DNA of 64,000 nucleotides from Bacteroidota bacterium. GTDB taxonomy: Bacteria > Bacteroidota > Bacteroidia > CAILMK01 > JACPUW01. The stretch lies in assembly GCA_016192035.1 (NCBI GenBank), contig JACPUW010000033.1, positions 124,001 to 188,000 of the forward strand. The letters are read 5' to 3'. The notes beneath the pieces were generated by a model, which did no database searches, was not told where the DNA came from, and saw only the letters and a program-made list of their open reading frames with translations. This document shows positions 6,561 through 13,857 of the stretch, piece after piece. The position numbers and the translations under genes are program-made. The stretch's first letter is position 1. Each line of letters starts with the position of its first letter.

Positions 6561-6606
6561 AATGCGCTGGATAATGGATAAAGGGCTATAAACTACTTTT
6601 GCTAGG

Positions 6607-6614
6607 CAAAAGTA
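6607..6614 (-). promoter_or_regulatory. -7 box TACTTTTG upstream of the porW/sprE-like gene
   Basis: TACTTTTG on the minus strand matches TAnnTTTG and lies 46 bases before the proposed TTG start. It lies in the 112-bp gap to the divergent M23 gene and argues that the upstream part of the open frame is not translated. Confidence 0.45.
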
Positions 6615-6672: not shown

Positions 6673-7533
6673 ATGGACAAAAAGAAAACCAGTTTACTAT
6701 CAAGGCTCAATGACAAGTATAGGGTCAACATTATCAATCCTGACAACTTTGAGGAGATTTCCAGTTTTACGGCATCATGGACCCTGGTGCTCATGGCAGC
6801 AAGTGTTATCTTCCTGTTTAGTTTTGTGTTATGTGTCATGCTTTTGGCCTACACACCACTGGTCAACTACTTTGACAAACCTGTAGATCAGGTAGTGCAG
6901 GGAGAAACCCTGCGCTTAACCCAGTTGGCCGATTCGCTCAGTGAAGTGCTTAACGTACAAACCAGATACATAGACAATCATTTAAGGATACTAAAAGGCG
7001 AGGACGAAATGTATGCGGAGGAAGCCAACAAGGAGGTGCCCCCGCCACAGAAAGAGGTTGATGAGGCCAGCCTTTTTTATGTGTCGCCCCAGGATAGCAG
7101 CTTGCGCAGGGAACTTCAGGGAGGGCAATATAACCTAGGCGATGGACGGACCAAGAGGAATGAAGCCTTACACTTTTATTCTCCTGTGGATGGTTTGGTC
7201 AATAGTGGATTTGACCCGGCCATTGGGCACTATGCGGTGGATTTGATTGCCTCACGCGATGCACCGGTAAAGGCCACCCTTGATGGCACCGTCGTTTTTT
7301 CCGAGTTTTCATCCACCACGGGGCACGTTATAGTACTGCAACACCTCAACAACTATATATCCATTTACAAGCACAATTCGGTATTGTTGAAGCAAGTCGG
7401 TAATTTTGTCCACGCAGGCGAACCTATTGCCGTAATAGGCAACAGTGGAGAGATGACCACCGGCCCCCACCTTCATTTTGAATTGTGGCTTAATGGCCGG
7501 CCCATTGACCCTGAGAATTTTATCATTTTCTAA
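6673..7533 (+). CDS. M23 family metallopeptidase (LytM-type peptidoglycan endopeptidase)
   Basis: A 286-residue membrane-anchored protein: short basic N-terminus, one transmembrane helix at about 37-58, a periplasmic linker, and a C-terminal LytM/M23 domain (about 165-280). Zinc ligands are visible as the HxxxD motif in GHYAVDL and the HxH motif in PHLHFELW. M23 enzymes cut peptide cross-bridges of peptidoglycan or serve as amidase activators; this form, with a conserved basic head and one helix, is common in Bacteroidota beside bactofilin genes. The bactofilin gene follows after 11 bases, and the pair likely forms a cell-shape module. Divergent from the porW/sprE-like gene. Confidence 0.9.
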   Translation: MDKKKTSLLSRLNDKYRVNIINPDNFEEISSFTASWTLVLMAASVIFLFSFVLCVMLLAYTPLVNYFDKPVDQVVQGETLRLTQLADSLSEVLNVQTRYIDNHLRILKGEDEMYAEEANKEVPPPQKEVDEASLFYVSPQDSSLRRELQGGQYNLGDGRTKRNEALHFYSPVDGLVNSGFDPAIGHYAVDLIASRDAPVKATLDGTVVFSEFSSTTGHVIVLQHLNNYISIYKHNSVLLKQVGNFVHAGEPIAVIGNSGEMTTGPHLHFELWLNGRPIDPENFIIF

Positions 7534-8534: not shown

Positions 8535-8595
8535 ATGCCTGGCTCCGGTTGTTGACAAATCACATGGCTAAATCCATTTGTATTGGAAAAAGCCC

Positions 8596-8603
8596 TACAT
8601 TTG
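8596..8603 (+). promoter_or_regulatory. internal -7 box TACATTTG upstream of atpB
   Basis: TACATTTG with TTTG 15 bases upstream (8577-8580), the same spacing as at uvrC. It lies in the 106-bp gap before the chosen atpB start, inside a longer TTG-initiated open frame, and suggests a second promoter giving the F0F1 genes expression independent of bactofilin. Confidence 0.5.
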
Positions 8604-8640
8604 CACCGATTTTTCCAAAAAAAGTAAACCAACGCATCAG

Positions 8641-9816
8641 GTGAACATTGGTTTTTGTCATAAGCAATTGTCAGTAAGCGTGTTTTTTACCGCAATGCTG
8701 ATGTGGTTTGCACCCGTGGTGGCAAATACAGGGCATGAAAAGGCAGTTCATAACGAAAAGGACACCACACAAGGGCAACATGGCAGCAATGATGAGGTAG
8801 ATGTGACCGCTACCATTATGCACCACATCATGGATGCCCATGACTGGCATGTAATGGATTTAAATGGCCACCCCGTATCCGTACCGCTACCCATTATTTT
8901 GTACACTGACAACGGTTTTGTGTTTGGGCTATCCTCTGCCTTTCACCATGATGACCACGGTAGCCATGTGGCCAACATAGGTGGACAACGATTTGTGAAA
9001 AACCATGGGCACATTTACTATGCTGCCGAAATTGCTGATGCCGGTGGCCGATACTTGAACATTACCCATGACGCAGCAACAGGAGATGAACAAATCCTGA
9101 ATGGTTTACCACTAGACCTATCATTGACCAAGAATGCTGTTTCCCTTATTATATGTGCAATGATTATCTTGCTAATAGGCTTTTCAGCCGCTAGGGCCTA
9201 TCGAAAAAAATCGGTACCATCGGGCATTGCATCATTCGTAGAGCCCATTGTGGTGTTTATTAGAGATGAAGTGGCAAGGCCCAATATCGGTGATAAGCGG
9301 TATAAGGCGTTCATGCCCTATCTATTAACCCTGTTCTTTTTTATCTGGATCAATAATATGCTGGGCCTGGTTCCATTCCTGCCAGGCGGGGCAAATACCA
9401 CTGGCAATATTGCGGTGACCATGGTGTTGGCCGTTTGTACGTTGGTACTTATAGTCTTCAATGGAAACAAACACTTTTGGCAACACATCTTCTGGATGCC
9501 CGGCGTTCCGGTGCCCGTACGAATCATGTTGGCTCCCATAGAGCTGGTTGGTGTTTTCACCAAACCATTTGCACTTATGATAAGGCTTTTTGCCAATATG
9601 ACGGCAGGCCACATAGTGATTCTGAGCCTAGTTTCACTTATATTCATCTTCAAGACTAGTTTTATGGCCATTGCATCCGTGCCGCTCACCTTGTTCATTT
9701 ATCTTATCAAGGTGTTGGTGGCCTTGTTGCAGGCATATATATTCACCTTGTTAACTGCCTTGTTCATAGGCCAGGCCGTAGAAGATCATGGTCATGGACA
9801 AGAGCACCATCATTAG
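8641..9816 (+). CDS. atpB: F0F1 ATP synthase subunit a
   Basis: Subunit a forms the proton half-channels against the c-ring. The C-terminal half (from about residue 165) has the five to six helices of the family, with the essential arginine in MIRLFANMTAGH. The N-terminus has a signal-peptide-like segment (ending near FAPVVANT) and an unusual histidine- and acid-rich periplasmic extension of about 130 residues, as seen in other Bacteroidota; the C-terminus is also His-rich (EDHGHGQEHHH). Start: the frame opens at TTG 8578, but that codon is part of a promoter-like element, so GTG 8641 (391 residues) is preferred; TTG 8668 or ATG 8695 remain possible. Confidence 0.95.
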   Translation: MNIGFCHKQLSVSVFFTAMLMWFAPVVANTGHEKAVHNEKDTTQGQHGSNDEVDVTATIMHHIMDAHDWHVMDLNGHPVSVPLPIILYTDNGFVFGLSSAFHHDDHGSHVANIGGQRFVKNHGHIYYAAEIADAGGRYLNITHDAATGDEQILNGLPLDLSLTKNAVSLIICAMIILLIGFSAARAYRKKSVPSGIASFVEPIVVFIRDEVARPNIGDKRYKAFMPYLLTLFFFIWINNMLGLVPFLPGGANTTGNIAVTMVLAVCTLVLIVFNGNKHFWQHIFWMPGVPVPVRIMLAPIELVGVFTKPFALMIRLFANMTAGHIVILSLVSLIFIFKTSFMAIASVPLTLFIYLIKVLVALLQAYIFTLLTALFIGQAVEDHGHGQEHHH

Positions 9817-9846: not shown

Positions 9847-10065
<219 letters not shown>

Positions 10066-10078
10066 GAAGTACACAATC

Positions 10079-10119
10079 AAAAGACGACCCGATCAACGAT
10101 TGGTTGCGGGTTGTCTTTT
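10079..10119 (+). terminator. strong hairpin between atpE and atpF (attenuator or processing site)
   Basis: AAAAGACGACCCG (10079-10091) pairs with CGGGTTGTCTTTT (10107-10119) over 13 bp with one G-U pair; inside, CAAC/GTTG adds 4 bp. The 3' arm ends in TTTTC. It looks like an intrinsic terminator but sits within the operon, 14 bases after the atpE stop. Partial termination or 3'-end protection would raise c-subunit output over the downstream subunits. Confidence 0.6.
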
Positions 10120-10147
10120 CTTATCAAACATCTAATAACACTCAATC

Positions 10148-10642
10148 ATGGAATTGGTAACCCCAGGTTTTGGACTTATATTTTGGTCAACCATCACCTT
10201 CTTGCTCTTGGTGTTTATTTTGGGCAAGTTTGCTTGGAAACCCATACTTTCAGCGATACATGAGCGCGAAAAAAGCATAGAAGAGGCCCTTCACGCGGCC
10301 GAACGGGCGAGGGATGACATGAAAAACCTTCAAAGTGAGCATGAAAAACTGCTGAGGCAAGCCAAAGCCGAGCGTGACTTGATCCTGAAAGAAGCCAAGG
10401 AAACCAGGGATAAGGTGGTATCGGATGCGCAAAAAACAGCCATAACCGAGGCCAATGCTATAATGGCCAGGGCAAACGAAGAAATAAAGCGCGAACGCGA
10501 ACAAGCGTTTAAGGAACTTAGGAAGGAGGTAGCTGAGATTGCCGTACAGGCTGCTACGATCATACTGAAAGGCCAGCTTTCAGATAAAGAAAAACAAGGC
10601 GCACTGGTAGATGCCTATATAAAAGAGACAAAACTCAACTAA
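10148..10642 (+). CDS. atpF: F0F1 ATP synthase subunit b
   Basis: The peripheral stalk subunit, 164 residues: a short N-terminal segment with one transmembrane helix (about 9-28) followed by a long charged coiled coil rich in Glu, Lys, Arg and Ala (from about 35 to the end). PGFGLIFWSTITFLLLVFIL is typical of Bacteroidota subunit b. Nine bases separate it from atpH. Confidence 0.96.
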   Translation: MELVTPGFGLIFWSTITFLLLVFILGKFAWKPILSAIHEREKSIEEALHAAERARDDMKNLQSEHEKLLRQAKAERDLILKEAKETRDKVVSDAQKTAITEANAIMARANEEIKREREQAFKELRKEVAEIAVQAATIILKGQLSDKEKQGALVDAYIKETKLN

Positions 10643-10651
10643 GTCCCGGGC

Positions 10652-11188
10652 ATGTCAAATTACCGAATCACTTCTCGCTATGCCAAAGCCCTGCTGGACT
10701 TGAGCATAGAAAGAAACGAACTACAAAACGTTCAGGGCGATGTGTCACTTATCGTGGAAACGTTAGCTGGCAGTCGCCAACTGGTGGTTTTTTTGGCCAA
10801 TCCCGTAGTGCTGCCTCAAAAGAAGTTGGCTGTTCTCACGGCCCTTTTCAAAGAGCGGATATCTAAGACAACCTTCAAGTTTATTGAAGTAATGGTGAGG
10901 AAAAACCGCTCAGCATTGATTTATGAAATACTGGAGGCCTTTTTAGTTCAATTTAAAGCCCATGAGCACATAGCCGATGCCACGCTGGTAACAGCTGTAG
11001 CGGCTGCAAACAGGGTCAAGGAGGAAGTTATCCGTATGTTGGAATCGGCCATCAGTGAAAAAGTAGTACTTACCAATGTGGTTAATGAAGCCATACTGGG
11101 AGGATTTCAAATTCGGTACAAGGATAAACTATTGGATGCAAGTGTGTCATCCAAACTCAATATATTGAGAAAGAGATTAATAGATTAA
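10652..11188 (+). CDS. atpH: F0F1 ATP synthase subunit delta
   Basis: The stalk cap (OSCP-like) subunit of 178 residues joining subunit b to the alpha3beta3 head. The N-terminal helical domain starts RITSRYAKALLDLSIERN, and the conserved C-terminal block GGFQIRYKDKLLDASV is present near 150. Normal length for the family. It is followed by atpA after 24 bases. Confidence 0.95.
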   Translation: MSNYRITSRYAKALLDLSIERNELQNVQGDVSLIVETLAGSRQLVVFLANPVVLPQKKLAVLTALFKERISKTTFKFIEVMVRKNRSALIYEILEAFLVQFKAHEHIADATLVTAVAAANRVKEEVIRMLESAISEKVVLTNVVNEAILGGFQIRYKDKLLDASVSSKLNILRKRLID

Positions 11189-11212
11189 TAAACATTTATC
11201 ACAGACCGCATT

Positions 11213-12793
11213 ATGGCAAGTGTAAGACCCGACGAGGTATCAGCAATCATCAGACAGGAGCTAGCCGACTTTAGGTCGGAAACTGAACTGCAAGAGGTAG
11301 GCACCGTACTGCAGGTGGGCGATGGAATAGCCCGCATCTACGGACTGAACAGTGTGCAGGCCGGTGAACTCATTGAGTTTGAAAACGGTGTGAAAGGCAT
11401 TGTACTGAACCTGGAAGAGGATAACGTGGGCGCGGTGCTCATGGGGGCTTCGGGTAACATCAAGGAAGGCGACAATGTAAAGCGCACCAAGCAGATAGCT
11501 TCAATAAATGTAGGAGAGGGCATGTTGGGCCGCGTGGTCAATGCCCTTGGAGAAGCCATAGATGGCGAGGGTCCCCTCACCGGAGAACTCTATGAAATGC
11601 CCCTGGAGCGTAAGGCCCCGGGCGTACTCTTTAGGGAACCGGTAAAAGAGCCGCTGCAAACGGGAATTAAGGCCATAGACGCCATGATACCGATAGGCAG
11701 GGGTCAGCGCGAACTCATTATTGGCGACAGGCAAACGGGTAAGTCAACCATAGCCATTGACACCATCATCAACCAGAAAGAATTCTACGATAGGGGCGAG
11801 CCGGTTTATTGTATTTATGTGGCATCGGGGCAAAAGGCTTCCACCATTGCATCTACCGTGCAGACACTCAAGAAGTATGGTGCCATGGATTACACCGTGG
11901 TAGTGGCGGCATCAGCATCAGACCCTGCGCCGCAGCAATTCTATGCCCCTTTTGCAGGTTGTGCCATAGGTGAGTTTTTTAGGGATACTGGACGACCAGC
12001 CTTGATCATCTACGACGATTTGTCAAAACAGGCCGTGGCTTACCGTGAAGTGTCATTGCTGCTCAGGCGCCCTCCCGGACGTGAGGCGTATCCTGGAGAC
12101 GTGTTCTACCTTCACTCCCGTTTGCTTGAACGGGCCGCCAAGGTGATCAATGACAACAATATTGTTAAAACAATGAACGACCTCCCCGAAAGCATCAGGA
12201 GTATGGTGAAGGGTGGAGGATCACTAACCGCGCTTCCAATTATCGAAACCCAAGCGGGTGACGTGTCGGCCTATATTCCTACCAACGTTATTTCTATTAC
12301 CGACGGACAGATATTCCTTGAGTCTGACTTGTTTAACTCAGGAGTACGCCCGGCCATCAACGTGGGTATTTCGGTGTCGAGGGTGGGCGGAAACGCACAA
12401 ATTAAATCCATGAAGAAGGTAGCAGGTACCTTGAAGCTGGACCAAGCTCAGTACCGGGAGTTGGAGGCATTCTCCAAGTTTGGTTCTGACTTGGATGCCG
12501 CCACCAAGGCCGTACTTGACAAAGGCGCCCGCAACGTGGAGGTATTGAAGCAAAATCAGTTTAGCCCTGTGAGCGTAGAAAAACAGGTGGCCATTATATA
12601 TGCCGGCACTAAAGGTTTGCTGCGCAATGTGCCCATCCAGAAGGTAAAGGAATTTGAAGCCGAACTCATGGGATTCATGGAATTAAACCACTCGGATATT
12701 TTGGCTGCTTTCAAAGCCGGGAAGTTGGACAACGAACACCTTTCCAAACTGGAACAAGCGTGCAACGACTTGTCGGCCAAATATAAAAGCTAG
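11213..12793 (+). CDS. atpA: F0F1 ATP synthase subunit alpha
   Basis: A 526-residue non-catalytic nucleotide-binding subunit of the F1 head. The N-terminal beta-barrel (about 25-95) is followed by the Rossmann-type domain with the P-loop [13 protein letters not shown] (about 171-183) and [18 protein letters not shown]; the C-terminal helical domain runs from about 380. The R-Q-T-G-K-S form of the P-loop distinguishes alpha from beta. The expected atpD and atpC genes are absent from this window, consistent with a separate atpDC locus in Bacteroidota. Confidence 0.98.
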
Positions 12794-12796
12794 ATT

Positions 12797-13681
12797 ATGG
12801 CGAGCCTAAAGGAGGTCCGTAACCGGATCACATCGGTTAAGTCAACCCAGCAAATAACCAAAGCCATGAAAATGGTGGCGGCAGCCAAACTGCGCCGCGC
12901 CCAGGACAAAATAGTCCAAATGCGTCCATATGCAATGAAAATGAGCGAAATGCTTGGCAATCTGGGCGACAACCTATCTGGAAGTGCAGCACAGAAGTAT
13001 TTTTCGGCTGAGGAAAGTGCAAAAACCTTGTTCGTTTTGGTAACATCTGACAGAGGCCTGTGCGGTGCATTTAATTCCAGTTTGTTCAAGGAATTGCGGC
13101 ATCGTTTTGAACACGGGCTGAAAGGCGAGGTAGCTGCCGGACATATAGACCTGTACTGCATAGGCAAGAAGGGCCGAGAGCTCATGCAGCGGTATGGTGC
13201 CAATGTGATAGCCAAGCACGATGGTTTCTTCCAAGCATTTTCTTACGGCGATTGCGAAAAAATAGCCAATGAATTGATGGGCCTTTACAGCAGCGGAGAG
13301 TACAGCAAAATCTACTTGGTTTATAATCAATTTAAAAATGCTGCAACCTATTTAGGTCAAGTAGAGCAGTGGTTGCCTTTGGTTTCCACTGGCATGGAAG
13401 GTGTCCAGACAGTGCAGGCCGATTACATCTTTGAACCGGGCAAAGCCGAAATTTTGGATGAATTGGTGCCCAAATCACTGCGTATGTCTGTGTACAAGGC
13501 CGTATTGGATTCCAACGCGTCAGAGCATGGGGCCAGGATGACCGCCATGGATAGTGCCACTGAAAACGCGCAAGAAATGTTGCGCAACCTGTCAATAGAA
13601 TACAACAAGGCGCGCCAAGCCGCTATTACCACGGAAATCTTGGAAATAGTTGGCGGAGCGGAGGCCTTGGCAAATGGTTAA
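12797..13681 (+). CDS. atpG: F0F1 ATP synthase subunit gamma
   Basis: The 294-residue central shaft subunit. The N-terminal helix MASLKEVRNRITSVKSTQQI and the C-terminal helix containing ENAQEMLRNLSIEYNKARQA form the coiled coil that rotates in the head; the middle part is the Rossmann-like domain with SDRGLCGAFN. It starts 3 bases after the atpA stop and is the last gene of the operon, followed by a strong terminator. Confidence 0.97.
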   Translation: MASLKEVRNRITSVKSTQQITKAMKMVAAAKLRRAQDKIVQMRPYAMKMSEMLGNLGDNLSGSAAQKYFSAEESAKTLFVLVTSDRGLCGAFNSSLFKELRHRFEHGLKGEVAAGHIDLYCIGKKGRELMQRYGANVIAKHDGFFQAFSYGDCEKIANELMGLYSSGEYSKIYLVYNQFKNAATYLGQVEQWLPLVSTGMEGVQTVQADYIFEPGKAEILDELVPKSLRMSVYKAVLDSNASEHGARMTAMDSATENAQEMLRNLSIEYNKARQAAITTEILEIVGGAEALANG

Positions 13682-13696
13682 CGCGATAAGACTTAG

Positions 13697-13727
13697 CCAA
13701 CAAGGGAGCCCAAGGCTCCCTTGTTGG
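13697..13727 (+). terminator. intrinsic terminator of the atp operon
   Basis: A perfect 14-bp inverted repeat, CCAACAAGGGAGCC and GGCTCCCTTGTTGG, with a CAA loop (13711-13713), 15 bases after atpG. The trailing T-run is short (TTTCTG). The hairpin also separates the operon from typA. Confidence 0.85.
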
Positions 13728-13857
13728 TTTCTGAACATACTGGGCGTTTCATTAGTTATTCATCCCTTAACAGCAAAGCCATCCGGAAACGGAAACTTTG
13801 CACCCTGAAAGAGACTACCCATTCTTTACATTAACACACTGTTTTTCAATTAGTATT

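Follow-up and report, generated by a model that had tools for sequence, protein, structure and literature searches.

A conserved pentaloop hairpin at the atpE-atpF junction suggests a dedicated, apparently undescribed control element in the ATP-synthase operon of most sampled Bacteroidia

Introduction

How one operon yields about ten c subunits for each single-copy subunit of the ATP synthase is a textbook question. In E. coli, where the same problem is posed by the roughly ten c subunits of each complex, c-subunit stoichiometry is set mainly by translation initiation, with a translational enhancer at atpE; the E. coli atp operon was reportedly treated by McCarthy in 1990. This answer is not simply transferable to bacteria without Shine-Dalgarno sequences.

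Hairpins that lie inside operons and tune stoichiometry are a known kind of control. In Rhodobacter, the intercistronic stem-loop of the puf operon lies past the gene for a high-copy membrane subunit and gives rise to segmental mRNA abundance, and it acts through decay; we know of no conserved loop in it. In Clostridia, internal terminators set the stoichiometry of ABC transporters, with a hairpin and a U-rich tail separating a gene whose product is required in excess from genes with a lower requirement (PMC9045158). The mRNAs of Bacteroidota carry no Shine-Dalgarno sequences, according to the available part of a study of the phylum (PMC6847099).

Here we analyze a hairpin between atpE and atpF in a 64,000-nucleotide stretch of DNA from a Bacteroidota bacterium (the window), and compare it with the same junction in relatives. 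The phylum and the operon differ from those of the puf stem-loop. The hairpin and U-rich tail resemble those of the Clostridia terminators, but the loop is conserved over the class while the stem is not, whereas the term 'loop sequence' does not occur in the available text of the Clostridia study. We give a probability of roughly one half to the reading that this is a class-wide RNA element, which would act as a partial terminator or as a barrier at the 3' end and so keep atpE mRNA in excess, and whose loop would be read by a trans-acting factor.

Results

Pfam assignments gave the subunit order a, c, b, delta, alpha, gamma of an F0F1 operon (Table 1), in agreement with an earlier note, made from the sequence alone, which had placed the hairpin inside the ATP synthase operon just after the c-subunit gene. 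The hairpin starts 13 nt past the atpE stop codon and ends 28 nt before the atpF start. Past atpG, a 16-bp hairpin at 13693-13731 (-30 kcal/mol, with a short U-run) is probably the end of the operon; the Rfam matches there all lay far below their cut-offs. A further terminator-like hairpin, TACTTTTGCTAGGCAAAAGTA followed by six T, was seen at 6594-6614, shortly 5' of an open reading frame at 6673.

Table 1. Features of the atp operon around the hairpin (window coordinates)
Feature	Position	Strand	Remarks
atpB, a subunit (start codon uncertain)	8578..9816	+	Pfam ATP-synt_A, E 3.5e-58
atpE, c subunit, 68 aa plus stop	9859..10065	+	Pfam ATP-synt_C, E 1.2e-15
atpE stop codon	10063..10065	+	TAA
hairpin	10079..10119	+	13-bp outer stem (one G-U), 2-nt bulge, 4-bp upper stem, 5-nt loop
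hairpin bulge	10092..10093	+	2 nt
conserved apical loop and closing pair, C[GAUUG]G	10097..10103	+	loop GAUUG at 10098..10102; loop tallies, alignment A1
U-rich stretch UUUUCUUAUC	10116..10125	+	first four U paired in stem
leader, hairpin to atpF	10120..10147	+	28 nt; no TANNTTTG promoter-like box, no Shine-Dalgarno sequence visible
atpF, b subunit	10148..10642	+	Pfam ATP-synt_B, E 8.6e-30
atpH, atpA, atpG (delta, alpha, gamma), 3' of hairpin	10652..13681	+	Pfam OSCP, ATP-synt_ab, ATP-synt

Energy folding of positions 10070-10130 returned one hairpin with exactly the span given in Table 1, at -22.5 kcal/mol. Shuffled sequences averaged -9.0 kcal/mol (sd 2.4; z -5.6), and 0 of 200 folded as well. 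With this energy and z-score, and with its conserved pairing described below, it is a stable G+C-containing hairpin such as an intrinsic terminator would have. Folding thus bore out the 13-bp stem with a G-U pair and the T-rich end that the earlier note had reported, a description that holds for the outer stem and misses the bulge, the 4-bp upper stem and the GAUUG loop. The main feature overlooked is the conserved apical loop, which a plain terminator or stability hairpin does not need. At the 3' end of the hairpin, UUUU lies within the stem and is followed by CUUAUC. A generic terminator scan of the window did not list 10079-10119, probably because of the bulge. A covariance model that had been built with the window's own sequence included, run against the window with filters off, scored 10079-10119 on the + strand at 29.2 bits (E 5.4e-5; next best match, 17.2 bits).

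The stretch past atpE was read in 30 relatives and in 80 named genome records (110 loci). Four Planctomycetes and three duplicate hairpins are part of the named set, which overlaps the relatives' sets in part (L041 with G044, L052 with G192); two second matches, G022:C24 and G048:C16, were left out of the draw of relatives. Alignment A1 comprises 81 distinct hairpins, picked by loop pattern and gap-free, with loop columns that are invariant by construction. Its stem cells were paired in 90.1% of 1134 cases versus 52.3% in shuffles, and 476 cells had changed on both sides versus 146 in shuffles; structures slid along the alignment as a control gave 32 to 45% pairing. All 14 pairs covary through double changes. 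The earlier note had named a lack of conserved pairing in related genomes as one of two findings that would refute its idea, and this one is excluded by the strong conservation of pairing. The loop CGAUUGG is identical in L004, the one genome of the same genus, where almost the entire stem sequence differs. The covariation argues that the structure at the atpE-atpF junction is kept as RNA (or as a single strand) and not as DNA sequence.

Two tallies of the loop are free of any loop-based choice. Among the 110 loci, 68 have strong junction hairpins when these are picked by stem only, and 56 of these 68 bear the near-constant tip C[G(G/A)UUG]G; away from the junction in the same loci, none of the 172 strong hairpins (+ strand, 85; - strand, 87) carries the G[GA]UUG loop. 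It was likewise missing from all 210 strong hairpins of the window plus 200 kb each of its own genome and of G224, in a search with a finder that is blind to the window's own bulged hairpin.

We then classified junctions by energy folding, a procedure that prefers a strict hairpin whenever one folds. A first draw of 54 Bacteroidia genomes gave 31 with a strict loop (C-G or G-C closed), 5 with a relaxed R-NNN-G loop, 13 with another hairpin and 5 with none. A second draw held 61 same-class genomes, seven of them already in the first; of the other 54, G089, G142, G204 and G252 were left out, and the 50 that remained gave 35 strict, 9 relaxed and 6 other. A strict or relaxed loop is thus carried by 36/54 and 44/50 same-class genomes, and by 0/34 genomes of other classes of the phylum (0 strict, 0 relaxed), the latter being 34 junctions that cover 19 of 32 families and were taken from the better matches among 186 genomes. 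The 80 named records, four Planctomycetes among them, gave 62 strict, 6 relaxed and 12 other. As a string only, the loop pattern is present in 32 of the 55 sampled families of the class. In the other classes, L207 has U[GAUUG]G by one finder and not by energy folding, and L196 and L260 contain the string without the loop. The 18 of 54 broadly drawn class members with neither loop (5 of the 18 with no clear hairpin) count against our reading, since not all members of the class need the element.

The relaxed loops include GCAUG, GCUAG, GUUAG, AAUGG and ACUUG. Family f38 has a small loop closed by G-C (AAAGG, GAAGG, ACAGG) that sits on an internal loop; four of its members (L169, L209, L226, L228) show a larger apical region with the conserved inner loop GC-RNAGG-GC on that internal loop, and in f56 (L213) the inner loop CGC-AUUAG-GCG is also placed on an internal loop. 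These apical regions of f38 and f56 are lineage-specific forms of the element. Hymenobacter (L088, L091, L092, L094) and L150 have a much longer, G+C-rich junction hairpin; these are mutually alike and lack the pentaloop.

A covariance model built from A1 was used to search 60 genomes at E<=1, under filters that lose weak matches. It returned 35 matches in 27 genomes, 21 at atpE junctions and 14 elsewhere, and at E<0.001 17 of 18 matches lay at atpE; the 21 atpE sites recovered compare with 31 strict ones counted by energy folding. A search of 12 genomes at E<=5 gave 28 matches, 12 at atpE (one per genome, the top match in 11) and 16 elsewhere. We folded 23 distinct off-site matches (9 of the 14 from the 60-genome search and all 16 from the 12-genome search, two being identical). 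Six of the 23 (L132, L135, L136, L137, L272, L281) have a C[GRUUG]G tip, all on weak stems of -3.8 to -9.4 kcal/mol. Nine of the 23 reach a folding energy of -13 kcal/mol or better, and each of these nine has a different loop from the junction hairpin. The best off-site match in the window's own genome, on a different contig (G000:C23), outscored the atpE hairpin in the 12-genome search (27.7 versus 22.2 bits). This match, L270 (G000:C23:183275-183312), is a 15-bp palindrome with a GGUU loop directly before what was judged by eye to be a TetR-like gene, and is perhaps an operator. The six tips, though on weak stems, and this palindrome speak against our reading. Among the matches inspected, the element has one strong site, the atpE-atpF junction, and is found there on one strand. 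The idea of a repeat element was dismissed because the stems are not alike and no strong copies turned up at other sites.

These tallies and searches bear on the simplest alternative, an ordinary partial intrinsic terminator whose loop is conserved only as a favourable cap C(GRUUG)G, much as UUCG is a favourable hairpin cap in other bacteria. A hairpin with a U-rich tail is what such a terminator would consist of, and some genomes of other classes (L168, L259, L201, L205, L264) carry terminator-like hairpins with other loops at the same junction. A favourable cap should, however, recur in other strong hairpins, where we found it in neither the set of 172 nor that of 210, and the strong off-site matches to the model carry other loops. 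A generic terminator loop is therefore not supported, and we consider this alternative unlikely.

Within one of those other classes, the hairpins of L168 and L259 (family f62) are U-rich and stand directly past atpE with unrelated loops; the other two f62 genomes (L167, L258) have different hairpins. The terminator-like hairpins of the other classes suggest that a break past atpE is a wider habit, which may be older than the conserved loop, and that the loop is the novelty.

The tail of the hairpin was compared across relatives. Past the core stem, T occupies 5.53 of 9 positions versus 2.92 of 9 further downstream (103 hairpins, 14 having been dropped by the stem rule, the window's own included). 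In the same 103, A is enriched to almost the same degree ahead of the stem (5.15 of 9). An A-U stem of greater length would by itself produce this, which weighs against our reading. T after the stem nevertheless exceeds A before it (5.21 versus 4.49 of 8; n=107, the window's own hairpin dropped by the stem rule; Wilcoxon p 1e-4, relatedness not corrected), so that U seems to be kept beyond the demand of pairing. The U-tract is interrupted and partly within the stem in the window (UUUUCUUAUC), and in relatives, U-enriched as they are, it is often short or interrupted, a further point against our reading.

Strong hairpins are concentrated at one junction. With start codons called automatically, the named loci have one at atpE-atpF in 49/72 cases, at atpF-atpH in 3/71 and at atpH-atpA in 2/69; within 90 nt upstream of atpE one is present in 6/73. 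The median distance from loop to atpF is 51 nt. Of 123 motif loci, 6 have a promoter-like box (recognized by its -7 consensus) ahead of the atpF start, which was called automatically; the window's locus is not among them, and an internal promoter before atpF was rejected on this count. The short gap and the rarity of the box make it probable that the downstream genes need read-through and that termination cannot be complete; complete termination would probably silence atpF, atpH, atpA and atpG. Partial termination or mRNA protection would agree with three observations: the position after the gene for a subunit of about ten copies, the U enrichment, and the scarcity of such hairpins at the two junctions that follow.

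Protection could also be the whole function. As a decay barrier or processing element in the manner of Rhodobacter puf, the hairpin would protect the 3' end of atpE after a cut downstream, with no termination involved. A strong stem right past the most-needed gene and the weak U-tract of many tails would suit such a role, and intercistronic decay terminators offer a precedent, one having reportedly been described by Chen et al. in 1988. Against it, U is enriched somewhat beyond the need of pairing, and a barrier does not require a conserved loop. We hold this explanation to be rather improbable.

Known RNA-binding proteins were sought in 60 relatives. CsrA was found in 0/60, and Hfq in 0/60 over the cut-off, with one weak match below it. 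RRM proteins, the RbpB type of B. thetaiotaomicron (PMC11697453), are present in 34/60, and were not found for example in G050, G041, G024 and G016, all of which have a strict hairpin. CsrA, Hfq and RRM proteins are thus not supported as universal loop readers, none of them having been found throughout the hairpin-bearing genomes. That this search yielded no loop-binding protein counts against our reading; a putative reader could possibly be a part of RNA polymerase or of the ribosome, or an uncharacterised protein.

The loop might instead pair with RNA. If the 3' end of atpE were released as a small regulatory RNA, the loop could serve as a seed for pairing with other mRNAs: it is conserved, single-stranded and borne on a terminator-like hairpin, and intra-operonic and 3'-derived small RNAs have been reported in Bacteroides thetaiotaomicron (available parts of PMC7366714 and PMC10994844). 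Yet only five bases are exposed, the flanks of the stem have no further k-mer strongly in common apart from A/T-rich ones and the atpF start, and 'ATP synthase' does not occur in the main texts of those two reports as far as they are available, which leaves this idea very unlikely.

Pairing of the loop elsewhere in the same mRNA, as a long-range pseudoknot, would find two complements inside atpE. Many loci have CAACC some 120 nt before the atpE stop, and CAATC/CAATT, which could pair with GAUUG (and with GGUUG through a G-U pair), is found at an Ala-Ile codon pair in 16/22 GAUUG loci (the window included) versus 35/83 GGUUG loci, an excess that a second count also showed. However, CAACC encodes a Gln-Pro pair in AtpE and is equally common with GAUUG and GGUUG loops; the Ala-Ile site is coding as well, GCA being the commonest Ala codon in GAUUG loci, many of its carriers are related (Pedobacter), and L004, from the window's own genus, lacks it; and the complements of variant loops in eight records have no common place, so that no convincing partner was found, the Ala-Ile site is one weak lead, and we judge a pseudoknot to be the least probable of these explanations.

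Discussion

The hairpin described here suggests a dedicated control element in the ATP-synthase operon, carried by most sampled members of the class, and one that is apparently undescribed. Rfam 15 gave no match at E<=1 over 10079-10119, and a full-text literature search, with most subscription papers outside its scope, had no study of this hairpin among the matches listed. While tuning of stoichiometry by an intra-operonic hairpin is familiar, the class-wide form with a conserved loop and one strong site appears to be new.

On the reading that we favor, the mRNA, nascent or finished, would fold into a stem of any sequence topped by an R-NNN-G pentaloop (usually GGUUG or GAUUG) closed by C-G. 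The hairpin and its U-tract would halt part of the RNA polymerases, or make a protected 3' end, just past atpE. The atpB-atpE message would then be in excess over that of atpF, atpH, atpA and atpG, and the downstream genes would live on read-through. The conserved loop would be the recognition site of a putative trans-acting factor that tunes termination or protects the end. Matching c-subunit stoichiometry, the purpose that the earlier note had proposed, is plausible for such partial termination or protection.

An RNA-level solution is reasonable in a phylum whose mRNAs are without Shine-Dalgarno sequences, though the correlation is a single one, at a single deep branch. An SD-like tetramer precedes the automatically called atpF start in 6/174 class members versus 12/32 members of other classes.

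The presence of a conserved element at the exact atpE-atpF junction makes the stoichiometry question testable. The hairpin could be used as bait for the putative RNA-binding factor, its compact motif is one that Rfam lacks, and the lineage-specific loop variants offer natural experiments. More tentatively, and with the odds somewhat against so broad a claim, this may be a new single-target Bacteroidia element, in which a pentaloop hairpin and a putative factor would set, perhaps according to energy state, the flow of ATP-synthase mRNA past the c-subunit gene. If true, bacteria that abandoned Shine-Dalgarno signals would here have solved c-ring stoichiometry at the level of RNA.
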